DNA of 64,000 nucleotides from Burkholderiales bacterium (GTDB lineage Bacteria; Pseudomonadota; Gammaproteobacteria; Burkholderiales; Ga0077523), in NCBI GenBank assembly GCA_022843925.1, contig JALHMS010000014.1:28473-92472 (forward strand), in the 5' to 3' direction. Under the pieces are notes generated by a model. That model worked only from the letters and a program-made list of their open reading frames with translations. It had not been told where the DNA came from and did not search any database. The position numbers and the translations under genes are program-made. Below, piece by piece: positions 8,098 to 64,000 of the stretch (positions are counted from its first letter, which is position 1; every line of letters starts with the position of its first letter).

Positions 8098-8106
8098 CAG
8101 CGCATC

Positions 8107-8195
8107 ACACCGGTGATGGCACCCAATTTCACACCGGTGACGGCACCCACTTTCACACCGGTGATGGCACCCAATTTCACACCGGTGATGGCACC
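8107..8195. repeat. 24-bp tandem direct repeat, about 3.7 copies (acaccggtgatggcacccaatttc)
   Basis: Units at 8107, 8131, 8155 and partial 8179; each contains palindrome CACCGGTG; two units identical, one with two substitutions. Overlaps the pncB stop and lies upstream of the SNase-like gene on the minus strand. Confidence 0.9.
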
Positions 8196-33427: not shown

Positions 33428-34854
33428 GCGAGCTGTCTCCAGAGGTGCATCACGGCATAGCCGCGCCAGGGTCGCCAGGCTTCGGCGGCGGCGAGCGTGT
33501 CGCGATCGTTGGTGGTGCCGAGCGCCTTGCGCACACCGAGGTCGCCGTGCGGGAAGGCATCGGGCCAGGCGAGCGCGCGCATCGCGATGTACTGCGCCGT
33601 CCAGTCGCCGATGCCCGGCAGCGCGCGTAGCGCATTCATCTGGGCGCCGACGTCGGCGGCAGGGGTCAGCGCCAGTGTGCCATCCGCGACGGCCCGCGCG
33701 ATCGCGAGGATGGCTGACGCGCGCGTGCGGATCACGCCGAGGCTAGCGATGTCGGGGACGTCCAGCGCCGCGATGCGTTCCGGTATCGGGAAGACGGCGT
33801 CGATCCCGGCGATGGTGGACACGAGCGGCTCGCCGAACGCGCGGGCGAAGCGCCCCGCGAGCGTGCGCGCCGCCTTCACCGTGACCTGCTGCCCGAGCAC
33901 GGCGCGTACCGCCAGTTCGAAACCGTCGAACGCGCCGGGCAGACGCAGCCCCGGTGCGGCGGCAGCGATGTCGCCCAACTGCGCGGCGATCGCGCCAGGG
34001 TTCGCCGCGAGATCGAAGAGGCGCTGCGTCCGCTGCAGCACGGCCGGGATCACGGGCACGAGGCCGGGCGACAGCGTCACGCGCAGCCCCAGGCGATCGG
34101 GTGCGTGCGAAACGACGATCCAGCCCCTGTTCACGCGGTCGCGCTGAACGACGCGAACGCTGCGCGCGTACTGGCCTTCGGCGACGACCTCCACGCCGTC
34201 AATCGTGCGCGCGCCCAGGAATGTCAGCAGCGCATCGAACTCGTAGGGCGGGCGATACGAGAGCAGGAAGCCCGGGTTCGCGGGCGCGGGGCCGTGGCGC
34301 ACGTGGCGGAGGTCAGACGGCGCCATGCGATAGCGCGCGCGGAAGAGCGCGTGGAAGCGCCGGAAGCTGCCGAAGCCGGCGGCGTACGCGATGTCGGTGA
34401 TCGCCAGGTCCGTGTCGGTCAGCAGCCGCTTCGCGAGCAGCAGGCGCTGCGTCTGTGCGTAGGCGACGGGGGCGACGCCGAAATGGTTCGAGAACACGCG
34501 GCGCAGATGGCGATCGGTGACCGAGAGGCGCGACGCCAGGGCTTCCAGACTGCCGTCGTCCAGCGCGCCTGCGTCGATGAGATCGGCCGCGGTGCGTGCG
34601 AGCCGTTCCGGCGCATCGAGCGGTGCGGCGCCGGGCGCCAGTTCGGGACGGCAGCGCAGACAGGGCCGGAAGCCCGCGGACTCCGCTGCGGCGGCACTCG
34701 GATGGAACGTGCAGTTCTCGCGCCGCGGCCGGCGGGCCGTGCAGACGGGCCGGCAGTAGATCCCCGTCGACGCGACGCCCACGAAGAACTCGCCGTCGAA
34801 GCGGCGGTCGCGGGCGGCGAGGGCGCGGTAGCAGAGGTCGGGATCAAGCAGCAT
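33424..34854 (-). CDS. AlkA-type DNA-3-methyladenine glycosylase with Ada-like N-terminus and AraC-type HTH
   Basis: [71 protein letters not shown] (Ada Zn/Cys domain), AraC HTH, then AlkA/HhH-GPD. Overlaps ogt by ATGA. Confidence 0.93.
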
Positions 34855-34930
34855 GGGCCGAACGATAGCCGCGCGAGGCCCCGGCCGCATGCCGGATTCG
34901 GACATCGCAGCCATGCGGGCTGCTGCCGCT

Positions 34931-35659
34931 TCAGAGCGTCGCCTGATTCACGCGCTTCGATAGCGCTTCGGCGTCTTCCTTCCGCTCGCTGTAGCGGTCG
35001 ACGAGATGCCCGGCGACGTCGCGCGTGAGCAGGGTGAACTTCATCAGTTCCTCCATCACGTCGACCACGCGGTCGTAGTAGGCGGAGGGCTTCATGCGCC
35101 CGACGTCGTCGAACTCCTGATACGCCTTGGCGACGGACGACTGGTTGGGGATCGTGATCATCCGCATCCAGCGGCCGAGCACGCGCAGCTGGTTCACCGC
35201 GTTGAACGATTGCGACCCGCCACTCACCTGCATCACGGCGAGCGTCTTGCCCTGCGTCGGCCTCACCGCGCCGACCGCGAGCGGGATCCAGTCGATCTGC
35301 GACTTCATGATCCCGGTCATCGCCCCGTGGCGTTCCGGCGAGCACCACACCATCCCCTCGGACCACTGCGCGAGCGTGCGGAGTTCCTGCACCTTCGGAT
35401 GCGCCTCGGGCGCGGCATCGGGCAGCGGCAATCCGGCCGGATCGAAGATGCGCGTCTCGCCGCCCATCGCTTGCAGCAGGCGGGCGGCTTCCTGCGCCAG
35501 CAGGCGGCTGTACGAGCGCTCGCGAAGCGATCCGTACAGCAGCAGGAATCGCGGCGCGTGGGTCGATGGTGCCGAGGGGCGCAACGCCTCCTGCGACGGG
35601 CGCCGGAAGTGGGTCGGATCGAGGGCGGGCAGGTCGGTCATGGGGCTGGCGGCGGGCAT
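34931..35659 (-). CDS. arsH: Arsenical resistance flavoprotein ArsH
   Basis: [46 protein letters not shown]...[28 protein letters not shown]; in ars cluster. Confidence 0.95.
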
Positions 35660-35669
35660 GGGGGGCTCG

Positions 35670-36689
35670 TCACGCGGGGAACCAGTGGCGCGTGCGATTG
35701 GCGAGCGCCACCAGCGAGAGCATCACGGGGACCTCGACCAGCACGCCCACCACGGTGGCGAGGGCCGCGCCGGAATCGAGGCCGAAGAGCGAGATGGCGA
35801 CGGCCACCGCCAGCTCGAAGAAGTTCGATGTGCCGATCAGGCACGCAGGGGCGGCGATGCTGTACGGAAGGCGCATCCACCGCGCCGCGACGTACGCGAT
35901 CGCGAAGATGCCGTACGACTGCAGGATGAGCGGCACGGCGATCAGCGCGATCACGAGCGGCTTCGCGATGATCGTCCCGGCCTGGAAGCCGAAGAGCAGG
36001 ACCACGGTGGCGATGAGACCGACCACGGACCACGGCTTCAGCGCCGCGACGCCGCGTGCGAGCCGCGCCGTGCCGCCCGACCGCAGCCACAGCGCGCGGG
36101 TGATCGCGCCAGCCACGAGCGGCAGCACCACGTAGAGGATCGTCGACAGCGTGAGCGTCTGCCATGGCACCGTGACGTCCGTGACGCCGAGCAGGAACGC
36201 GGCGATCGGCGCGAAGGCGAAGACCATGATGAGATCGTTCACCGAGACCTGCACGAGCGTGTAGTTCGGATCGCCCTTCACGAGCTGGCTCCACACGAAC
36301 ACCATCGCCGTGCAGGGCGCGACGCCGAGCAGGATCATCCCCGCGATGTACTCGCTGGCCGACTGCGGGTCCACCCACGGCGCGAACACGTGCTGGAAGA
36401 ACAGCACCGCGAGCGCCGCCATCGTGAAGGGCTTGATGAGCCAGTTGACGACGAGCGTGAGCACGAGCCCGCGCGGTCGGCGGCCGACGTCCTTCACGGC
36501 TGCGAAGTCGATCTGGATCATCATCGGGTAGATCATCACCCAGATGAACACGGCAACCACGAGGTTGACGTGCGCCCACTCGATGCGGGCAATGGCCTGG
36601 AAGGCGCCCGGCATCTGCAGGCCGAGCACGACCCCCGCGACGATGCCGAGGCCGACCCAGACGGTCAGGAAGCGTTCGAAGAGTCCCAT
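35670..36689 (-). CDS. ACR3 family arsenite efflux transporter
   Basis: [23 protein letters not shown]...[23 protein letters not shown]...[34 protein letters not shown]. Confidence 0.94.
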
Positions 36690-60428: not shown

Positions 60429-61058
60429 TCAGCCGACGAGCCCGTTGCGCTGGCAGTACCGGGCGACTTCGGCGTTCGAGCCCATCCCGAGCTTCTCGAG
60501 CACGCGCGTGCGGTAGGTGCTGATGGTCTTCACGGAGAGCGCCAGTTCGTTCGCGATGTGGCTGAGGCCATGGCCTTCCGCCAGCATGCACATGACGCGG
60601 AACTCGCGGGCGGAGAGCCTGCCGTGGGGCGGTCCGTCGAGGTCGCCGGCCACCTGGCCCGCGAGGATCTCGGCGAGGGCGGGGCTGAGGTATCGCCCGC
60701 CGGACATGATCCGCGAGATCGCGGCGAGCAGCAGGTCCGACGCGTGGTCCTTCGTCATGTAGCCCGATGCGCCGGCGCGCAGTGCCTGCACGGCGAACTG
60801 CTCCTCGGCATGCATGCTCAGCACGAGGACCCGCTGGCCGGGGCGGGTCCGGTGGATGCGCTCCATCGTCTCGAGCCCCGAGAGGCCGGGCATGGAGATG
60901 TCGAGCAGCACCAGATCGAAGCCCTCGCTGCGCACGCAGTCCACGGCCCGCTCGCCGCTCTCGGCCTCGGTCACGGCGGCGTCGACATAGGCTTCGTCGA
61001 GAATCTGGCGCACGCCACGGCGCATGAGCGGGTGGTCGTCGACCACGAGGAACTTCAT
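60429..61058 (-). CDS. NarL/LuxR-type response regulator
   Basis: MKFLVVDDHPLMRRGVRQIL...FDLVLLDISMPGLSGLETM...LSAREFRVMCMLAEGHGLSHIANELALSVKTISTYRTRVLEKLGM. Confidence 0.95.
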   Translation of the reverse strand: MKFLVVDDHPLMRRGVRQILDEAYVDAAVTEAESGERAVDCVRSEGFDLVLLDISMPGLSGLETMERIHRTRPGQRVLVLSMHAEEQFAVQALRAGASGYMTKDHASDLLLAAISRIMSGGRYLSPALAEILAGQVAGDLDGPPHGRLSAREFRVMCMLAEGHGLSHIANELALSVKTISTYRTRVLEKLGMGSNAEVARYCQRNGLVG

Positions 61059-62932
61059 GGCGCCTCCAGGGCGTCGGCCTGGGAAGGCGCCGCCGCGACC
61101 GGTACTCGCACGCGGACGACGGCGCCCTGGCCCGGCGTCGAATCGATACGGGCCTGTCCGCCGGCAAGCATCGCCCGCTCGGTGATGCCCACCAGGCCCA
61201 TGCCGGACCCCGACAGGCTGCGCGGGTCGAACCCCGCCCCGTCGTCCCGGACCTCGAGCACGGCATCCGCGCCCTCGGCCCGCAACGAGAGCCAGATGTG
61301 CGTTGCCCGGGCGTGGCGCGCGACGTTCGTGCAGGCCTCGAGGGCGATGCGGTAGAGGGCGGTTGCGGTGGTGCGGGGGAGCGGAAGCTCGGCGACGTCA
61401 CAGTCGAAGACGATCTCGGTGCGGCGGGCGAAATCGAGGGCGTGGGCGCGCAGGGCCGGGGCGAGCCCGAGGCTGTCGAGGATCGCCGGGCGCAGTTCGC
61501 CCGCGAGGCGCCTGGCGACGACGATGGTCTCGTCGATGAACGTGGCCATGCCGTCGAGCCGGTCGGTGATGGGGGCACCCGTGACGGCCTCGACGTCACG
61601 CGACAGCCGGCGCCGCACCCACGCGATATCCATCTTGAGACTGGTCAGCGCCTGCCCGAGGGCGTCGTGGATCTCCCGCGCGATGCGGGTCCGCTCGGCC
61701 TCGATCGCCAGGGTGAGCGTCTCGGCGTACCGGGCGAGCCGCGTCCGCGATTCCGCAGCCTCGCGCTCGGCCTCCCGGCGGGCGGTGACGTCCTCGATGA
61801 TGGCGGAGAAGAACGGTTCGCGGCCCGCGACCGGACGCACCAGCGAGACCGTGATGGTGACCCAGACGACCTTGCCATCGGGGCGCAGGTACCGCTTCTC
61901 GCGGGAGTAGCTGAGCGGGGCGCCGCGCTGCAGGATCTGCAGATGCGCCCGTTCGGTCCCCCGGTCGTCGGGGTGCGTGAAGTCGCCCAGACGCCGGCTG
62001 AGGATGTCGCCCTCGCTGCGGCCCAGGATCTCGCAGTACCGCGGGTTCACGCGCGTCAGCCGACCGTCGATCGTGCCCTCGGCGACGCCCAGCGCGGTCT
62101 GGTCGAACGTCGCCTGCATCCGCGCCTGCTCCTCGGCGAGCGCGTTGCGCAGGCGCACGCTGTTCGTCACGTCCCGCAGCAGACCTTCGATCTCCACGAC
62201 CGCGCCTGCGCCATCCCGCCGGACCACGCCGCGGTCGTGGAACCAGCGGTAGTTCCCGTCGGCGGTCCGCAGGCGATACTCGCTGTCGATCCGCGTGTCG
62301 TCGGAGGCTTGCAGGTCTGCCAGGATGGCCCCGGCCACGACGACATCATCGGGATGCAGGAGTGACCGCCAGCCGTCGAGGTGTCCGCGCTGCGCTTCGG
62401 GCAGCGTGTCGAACAGACCCTCGATCGCTCCGGTCCAGCGGATCTCGTCCGTGGCGATCAGGTGGTGGTACGCGATGTCGTGCATGGCGCGGACGAAGGC
62501 TTGGCTGCGCACCTCCCGCGCCTGCGCTTCCGCCTCCAGCCGGGCGACGCGGGTGCGAAGGGCCGACTCCCGTGCCCGACCGGCGCGCCCGGTCCACCAG
62601 GAGATGGCGATCAGCAACCCACCCGCGAGGGCGATGATCAGGGCCGTCCGGAGGTCGCGGGCGACGAGCCACGACACCACCGCCAGCGCGGCAGCCGACA
62701 CGAAGGCCTGGAAGATCCGGCGCGACCCCAACAACGGGCCCGGGTCGGCGGGCGAGCCTTCGAGCAGCGACGATCTGGACAATTGAGGACCTCCGGCGGG
62801 CAGCGGCCCGAAGGGTGGTGCCGGACGCCGGAAGTGAAGTCCGCACCATTGCAATTTTTCCGGGCGGTGGCTTTCCGGTTCCGCCGGTCGTTCAGTCTTC
62901 ATGATCATGAGCATCCGAATCTCCTCGCGCAA
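61055..62932 (-). CDS. PAS-domain sensor histidine kinase (NarX/HisKA_3 type)
   Basis: Two PAS/PAC units; RTRIAREIHDALGQALTSLKMDIAWV; RIALEACTNVARHARATHIWLSL...DDGAGFDPRSLSGSGMGLVGITERA. ATGA overlap with regulator. Confidence 0.93.
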   Translation of the reverse strand: MREEIRMLMIMKTERPAEPESHRPEKLQWCGLHFRRPAPPFGPLPAGGPQLSRSSLLEGSPADPGPLLGSRRIFQAFVSAAALAVVSWLVARDLRTALIIALAGGLLIAISWWTGRAGRARESALRTRVARLEAEAQAREVRSQAFVRAMHDIAYHHLIATDEIRWTGAIEGLFDTLPEAQRGHLDGWRSLLHPDDVVVAGAILADLQASDDTRIDSEYRLRTADGNYRWFHDRGVVRRDGAGAVVEIEGLLRDVTNSVRLRNALAEEQARMQATFDQTALGVAEGTIDGRLTRVNPRYCEILGRSEGDILSRRLGDFTHPDDRGTERAHLQILQRGAPLSYSREKRYLRPDGKVVWVTITVSLVRPVAGREPFFSAIIEDVTARREAEREAAESRTRLARYAETLTLAIEAERTRIAREIHDALGQALTSLKMDIAWVRRRLSRDVEAVTGAPITDRLDGMATFIDETIVVARRLAGELRPAILDSLGLAPALRAHALDFARRTEIVFDCDVAELPLPRTTATALYRIALEACTNVARHARATHIWLSLRAEGADAVLEVRDDGAGFDPRSLSGSGMGLVGITERAMLAGGQARIDSTPGQGAVVRVRVPVAAAPSQADALEAP

Positions 62933-63004
62933 CCGGCCGATGCATTCGACGATGCAGAAAGGATGGGGAAGAGGAAATCCAACGCGATATCCGGGAGCCT
63001 CTTC

Positions 63005-64000
63005 GATGGCGTGGGCACAGCGATGAATCCAGGGACGCGGGCGTCGAGCAGTGCTCGACCCACGGGGGTTTTCTCAGCGCCGCTGCGCCCAATGGCGAGG
63101 CTCCTGCGTGGGTCGAGCAATGGCTCGACACGGCGATGGCGTGGGCACAGCGATGAATCCAGGGACGCGGGCGTCGAGCAGTGCTCGACCCACGGGGGAT
63201 TTCTCAGCGCCGCTGCGCCCAATGGCGAGGCCCCTGCGTGGGTCGAGCAATGGATCGACGCGGCGATGGCTTGGGCACAGAGGTGAATCCAGGGACGCGG
63301 GCGTCGAGCAGTGCTCGACCCACGGGGGTTTTCTCAGCGCCGCGGCGCCCGATGACTTGGCCCTAGCGTGGGTCGAGCAATGGCTCGACGCGGCCATGGC
63401 CTGGGCACAGAGGTGAATCCAGGGACGCCGGCGTCGAGCAGTGCTCGACCCACGGGGGTTTTCTCAGCGCCGCTGCGCCCGATGACTTGGCCCTAGCGTG
63501 GGTCGAGCAATGGCTCGACACGGCGATGGCTTGGGCACAGCGATGAATCCAGGAACGCGGGTGTCGAGCAGTGCTCGACCCACGGGGGTTTTCTCAGTGC
63601 CGCTGCGCCCGATGGCGAGGCCCCTGCGTGGGTCGAGCAATGGCTCGACGCGGCCATGGCTTGGGCACAGCGATGAATCCAGGGACGCGGGCGTCGAGCA
63701 GTGCTCGACCCACGGGGGATTTCTCAGCGCCGCTGCGCCCAATGGCGAGGCCCCTGCGTGGGTCGAGCAATGGCTCGACGCGGCGATGGCTTGGGCACAG
63801 CGATGAATCCAGGGACGCGGGCGTCGAGCAGTGCTCGACCCACGGGGGTTTTCTCAGCGCCGCTGCGCCCGATGGCGAGGCTCCTGCGTGGGGCGAGCAA
63901 TGGCTCGACACGGCGATGGCTTGGGCACAGCGATGAATCCAGGAACGCGGGTGTCGAGCAGTGCTCGACTCACGGGGGTTTTCTCAGCGCCGCTGCGCCC
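63005..64000. repeat. Strict 130-bp tandem repeat array, at least ~7.5 copies, continues past window edge
   Basis: g(c/t)gtcgagca recurs at 63041, 63171, 63301, 63431, 63561, 63691, 63821, 63951: exactly 130 bp each; only substitutions between units. Confidence 0.97.

Follow-up and report, generated by a model that had tools for sequence, protein, structure and literature searches.

A tandem array of GTGG-tagged REP sequences, very probably of the BIME/REPIN type, in an uncultured Burkholderiales genus

The stretch of DNA analysed here, hereafter the window, comprises 64,000 nucleotides of a Burkholderiales genome (G000, contig C14, positions 28473-92472) and ends within a tandem array located between two divergent genes, a PAS-domain sensor histidine kinase on the left and an efflux adaptor on the right (Table 1). 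The start codon of the kinase is uncertain because its predicted first ~35 residues fall in a non-conserved stretch. The array is preceded by a 172-bp leader occurring once in this genome and matched elsewhere in the genus over 29 bp only; given this single occurrence, the leader was rejected as part of a repeated mobile unit. Beyond the efflux adaptor, the region to the right (L041:6572-12699) encodes an M50/PqqD/HlyD-like protein, a SecA-like protein whose scores fall well short of the SecA cutoffs, and a RuBisCO-like protein, the latter being nearest to 3-oxo-isoapionate-4-phosphate decarboxylase and below its cutoff. At positions 8105-8195 of the window, a 24-bp direct repeat (3.8 copies) corresponds on the minus strand to AITGVKLG repeats at the 3' end of a long ORF.

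The initial annotation had described a strict 130-bp tandem array of stem-loop units free of indels. This was borne out at the locus by TRF, which gave a period of 130, 7.7 copies, 94% matches and 0% indels over 63004-64000, and the stem-loops are present in the sequence; the strict period does not extend to the whole family, in which it is mostly 127-134. At 63000-63030, the REPIN interior comes immediately after CTTC, as though one REP had been removed. The right boundary, which had been left to be established, was reached outside the window. Indeed, the array runs past position 64000, over a 10-N scaffold gap placed directly after it (C14:92473), and continues for ~2.8 more units to C14:92837, giving way there to unique sequence. 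The contig ends overlap exactly by 119 bp, the last 119 bases on the left of the gap recurring unchanged on its right, and the copy number is therefore uncertain: the repeat was probably collapsed or doubly counted at the gap, and the scaffold may count one copy twice. Contigs C1, C2, C11, C13, C18, C19 and C51 also start or end in arrays of the same family.

Twenty-one columns vary among the units, and the variants reported to be shuffled between them were found again (gggggat in units 2 and 6, aggaacgcgggtgtcgag in 5 and 8, gatgacttggccctag in 3 and 4). Among the seven full units, 19 of the 66 pairs of informative columns failed the four-gamete test. No simple tree accommodates these pairs, which supports exchange between units, in line with the unequal exchange or conversion proposed at the outset. 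ORFs cross the array in several frames, but a coding array was rejected, in agreement with the initial annotation, because 130 is not divisible by 3 and the units found elsewhere vary by single bases.

Table 1. Features of the array locus and RAYT genes (window positions unless a contig is given; G000, own genome; G006, related MAG).
Feature	Position	Strand	Basis
PAS-domain sensor histidine kinase (HisKA_3/HATPase_c), divergent, left of array	61055..62932	-	Domain matches
172 bp of non-repeat sequence beside array	62832..63003	.	Likewise absent from the G006 empty site (alignment)
Tandem BIME/REPIN array (very probable assignment), period 130 bp	63004..64000	+	TRF; extends beyond window to G000:C14:92837 across 10-N gap
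First unit, left-truncated: REPIN interior and inverted REP (GTCGAGCAGTGCTCGACCCAC at 63043-63063), first REP missing	63004..63063	+	Sequence; comparison with full units
REPIN 1, 86 bp: REP A GTGGGTCGAGCAATGGCTCGAC at 63108-63129, interior, inverted REP B ending CCCAC at 63193	63108..63193	+	Sequence; family definition
Further REPINs, every 130 bp	Starts 63238, 63368, 63498, 63628, 63758, 63888	+	Sequence; family definition
Inter-REPIN linker, 44 bp, every 130 bp	63194..63237	+	Linker lengths cluster at 43-46; linkers conserved between arrays
RAYT gene, own genome	C33:35178-35603		NCBIfam NF047646, 117.2 bits vs cutoff 80; PDB 4er8 TnpArep, E=1.4e-7
Second RAYT gene	G000:C27:59750-60184 (L156); G006:C56:58670-59104 (L159)		C27 gene over NF047646 cutoff; same gene neighbourhood in both MAGs

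A REP-like family had been suggested, and a search of the own genome returned 493 matches to the 130-bp unit on many contigs and in dozens of arrays. Each unit is made of two REPs, inverted and head-out, forming a pair of 85-86 bp, plus a linker of 44-45 bp. The REP sequence is GTGG + GTCGRGC-loop-GCYCGAC (GTGG + GTCGAGC-loop-GCTCGAC in the window units), i.e., a GTGG tag, a 7-bp stem and a 3-4 nt loop, and the outer GTGG..CCAC is fixed in 78/78 array representatives, whose REP copies were picked by that head with one mismatch allowed. The exact 11-base head GTGGGTCGRGC was counted 840 times versus 34 for the reversed pattern, and the strict 21-base REP 624 times versus 0. These 624 copies exceed the 100 expected of a REP family and are mainly extragenic; according to a home-made gene caller, arrays share >60 bp with a predicted gene in 6 of 71 cases. 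A distant blastn search of a plasmid collection gave no match.

Nearly all sampled REP copies sit in arrays of alternating orientation with a period of ~127-134. A census of 763 kb of own-genome DNA, picked for containing matches and therefore not an unbiased sample of array size or gene context, contained ~60 clusters of at least three heads with periods mostly of 127-134. In most of the 56 arrays with at least five heads, the spacing was 74-75 from plus to minus heads and 55-56 from minus to plus heads; 394 of 417 REP pairs measured 85-86 bp, and no array of mixed unit orientation was seen. Linkers are mostly of 43-46 bp, with others of 10-33 bp, and their mean identity between arrays is 0.72. 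In an array of 119-bp period lying beside the RAYT gene of contig C33, the 75-bp spacing is retained and only the other spacing is shorter, which points to the head-out pair, i.e., the REPIN, as the conserved element. Regularly spaced REPs of alternating orientation in tandem modules correspond to a BIME, and an inverted head-out pair with fixed spacing and a predicted long hairpin corresponds to a REPIN. In these selected regions, with genes called by a home-made codon-usage gene caller, convergent genes flanked 25 of 71 arrays versus 62 of 363 intergenic spaces overall (Fisher p=3e-5); the divergent context of the window array is the least common one.

Left edges devoid of linker similarity (n = 56) carry before GTGGG a T (44), then T (39) or G (13), then C (52), and base -4 is not conserved, the common stretch being only T-(T/G)-C directly before GTGGG. 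These edges suggest T-(T/G)-C as an end point of the mobile unit or of its target. Cutting at CT or CA dinucleotides beside the REP is described for TnpAREP enzymes (PMC8266576).

The fifth pair of the REP B stem was G-C in 67, A-T in 10 and unpaired in 1 of 78 arrays (one representative each, which are not independent events), the window array being of the A-T type, and this G-C/A-T change is compensatory. At the same position, the long-range REPIN stem shows an A.C mismatch in 68 of the 78 representatives; hence, of the two structures, the local REP hairpin is better preserved. Single-strand folding of the unit with DNA parameters beat that of shuffled sequences (z about -4 to -6), as expected of any palindrome. 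Rfam returned no match above gathering score, the sole hits being miRNA models that fell far short of it.

Among 12 genomes of the genus, the family was found only in G000 and in a related MAG, G006, which gave the same results as the MAG 'Betaproteobacteria bacterium Ga0077532' (locus L061). G006 contains 426 strict REP copies and 0 of the reversed pattern, the ten other congeners contain 0 strict REPs, and elsewhere, across 400 genomes of the order, matches were only stray (one to three per genome, in three genomes). The kinase and efflux-adaptor genes of G006 are arranged as in the window, without an array between them. This empty site (L061) reads GACGCCGG directly followed by CACGCTGCG, whereas in the occupied site GACGCCGG is followed by 172 bp of different sequence, by the array and by CACCGG, which directly adjoins CACGCTGCG. 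The array could equally have been inserted here or deleted in G006, and the CCGG present at each end may represent a target duplication or a deletion microhomology. Of the other own arrays compared, 12/12 have G006 arrays between the same flanks, in regions fetched for holding arrays, so that this fraction is not a genome-wide estimate. REPIN counts at orthologous arrays were 10 versus 5, 11 versus 5, 6 versus 2, 8 versus 4, 6 versus 3, 5 versus 7 and 6 versus 6. Mean identity was highest within arrays (0.912), lower between orthologous arrays (0.880) and lowest between the remaining ones (0.845), and orthologous arrays shared no identical REPIN; together, these are the mark of concerted evolution.

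The product of the C33 RAYT gene aligns with E. coli TnpArep (PDB 4er8) at the HxH and YxxxNP motifs. As expected of a REP-associated RAYT, this gene is flanked by arrays of the window REP, with heads at 34623-35141 and 35770-36008. The nearest REPs are not inverted, heads C33:35141 and C33:35770 being both on the minus strand, and inverted copies stand next outward on each side. The C33 RAYT, with arrays of this REP on both sides, is the likely partner of the REP family. No close homologue of it was found in G006 (42% at most, at the other RAYT locus), nor did a search for its site via neighbouring DNA give a convincing match. The gene may have been lost, may have been missed in this 89%-complete MAG or may not be what maintains the arrays, and because of this missing homologue the RAYT-REP link is drawn from G000. 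A second RAYT is shared by both MAGs, and the repeat family around it is apparently different, of GTAG type. This C27 RAYT and the Y1-transposase matches on contig C3 (344-366 aa) were rejected as obvious partners, since the window REP is absent from their fetched flanks.

RAYT genes are flanked by REPs, and BIMEs are regularly spaced alternating REPs (Nunvar et al., 2010, PMC2817692), the X. campestris REPs being mostly in BIME-type clusters (Nunvar et al., PMC2817692). The arrays resemble E. coli BIME-2 and the Xanthomonas campestris and Stenotrophomonas clusters (PMC2817692) in regular spacing, alternating orientation, head-to-tail modules, extragenic position, linked RAYT gene and variable copy number, but have another REP sequence and a GTGG tag throughout. 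Unlike in Stenotrophomonas BIMEs, where inter-REP segments lack mutual homology, interior and linker are conserved at dozens of sites and most arrays share one ~130-bp module. In Pseudomonas fluorescens SBW25, REPINs with a GTGG tag and 71-bp spacing form ordered tandem clusters of up to four (Bertels and Rainey, 2011, PMC3116915). The present pairs are likewise inverted, head-out and of fixed length (spacing of 74-75), with the same tag, a RAYT nearby and ordered tandem clusters; however, REPINs are mostly single in SBW25, with four in the largest ordered cluster, whereas arrays of 3-11 REPINs predominate in the regions sampled here. GTGG is a recorded variant of the REP tetranucleotide tag (Di Nocera et al., 2013, PMC3733652). 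A tetranucleotide tag at one end, a 5-13 bp stem, a short loop, head-head dimers and clusters are shared with REPs of the GTAG superfamily (PMC3733652), the stem GTCGRGC/GCYCGAC being set beside the family description. Save for the same-orientation REPs nearest the RAYT, the array features fit the published BIME, REPIN and GTAG descriptions, and the REP sequence, the uniform module and the array length are new details. The window array is thus very probably a BIME-type tandem array of REPINs belonging to a GTGG-tagged REP family; the REP sequence family appears to be new, and the BIME/REPIN kind of element is already known.

The near-constant 130 bp most plausibly reflects common descent of a single unit, and the arrays presumably originated from RAYT-mediated dispersal followed by local amplification and exchange. 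By analogy with the TnpAREP of E. coli, Stenotrophomonas and Marinomonas, a RAYT would bind the folded single-stranded REP hairpin via tag and stem and would cut beside it, carrying REP pairs into intergenic sites elsewhere. The units would then be amplified and homogenised locally through unequal recombination or strand slippage, perhaps under the action of the RAYT, yielding tandem arrays of near-fixed length. Effects on neighbouring genes (termination, RNA stability, binding of gyrase or another protein) are possible by-products.

Constant length had initially been taken as a sign of constraint, either as a structured RNA or as a protein-binding array. The similar length recurs at dozens of unrelated intergenic sites and, because unit and near-same length recur as expected for BIME/REPIN copies, a locus-specific constraint is not needed. 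An array of binding sites for gyrase, a nucleoid protein or another factor, with spacing kept near 130 bp, would be compatible with the REP identity and would differ as to what maintains the spacing. E. coli BIME-2 arrays are reportedly discussed as gyrase targets, a lead from the literature only, and both the very constant REP spacing (74-75, 55-56) across dozens of arrays and the conservation of linkers as well as REPs speak for such a constraint. We consider it rather unlikely, since common descent already accounts for the constancy, periods range mostly from 127 to 134, linkers of 10-33 bp and a 119-bp-period array exist, copy number varies freely at orthologous sites and ten congeners lack the family. 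It is also improbable that the whole ~130-bp unit (REPIN plus conserved linker), not the REP pair alone, is what replicates and is selected; in this reading, it would enter directly 3' of a TTC-like target, the RAYT would amplify it on the spot, and the resulting fixed-phase arrays, spread genome-wide, would have a chromosome-organising role.

Slippage or unequal crossing-over is likely within an array, as copy-number differences, four-gamete incompatibilities and within-array homogenisation would indicate. As the only process, producing an ordinary VNTR with no transposase link, it is very improbable, since it does not account for why one unit recurs at dozens of unrelated sites and is missing from the orthologous G006 site and from ten congeners, or for the RAYT gene flanked by the same REP. 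A structured non-coding RNA with an effect on the adjacent kinase or efflux genes would agree with the folding stronger than shuffles and with the stem covariation; but palindromes fold by construction, the same structure lies at dozens of unrelated loci, no Rfam family was recovered and the orthologous kinase in G006 has no array beside it, making this extremely unlikely. An assembly artefact, to which the 10-N gap with its identical flanks and the several contigs ending in such arrays might point, is scarcely credible, as the units vary at 21 columns, unique sequence adjoins the array on both sides and an independent MAG has the family at orthologous sites; only the copy number is doubtful.

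As a warning, arrays of such REPs break short-read assemblies. The REPIN/BIME identity accounts for the array, and a locus-specific function is no longer needed. Besides, the sister MAG, with its orthologous arrays of other sizes and its empty site, is useful for asking how BIMEs grow, and these results add a well-populated REPIN/BIME family from an uncultured genus.
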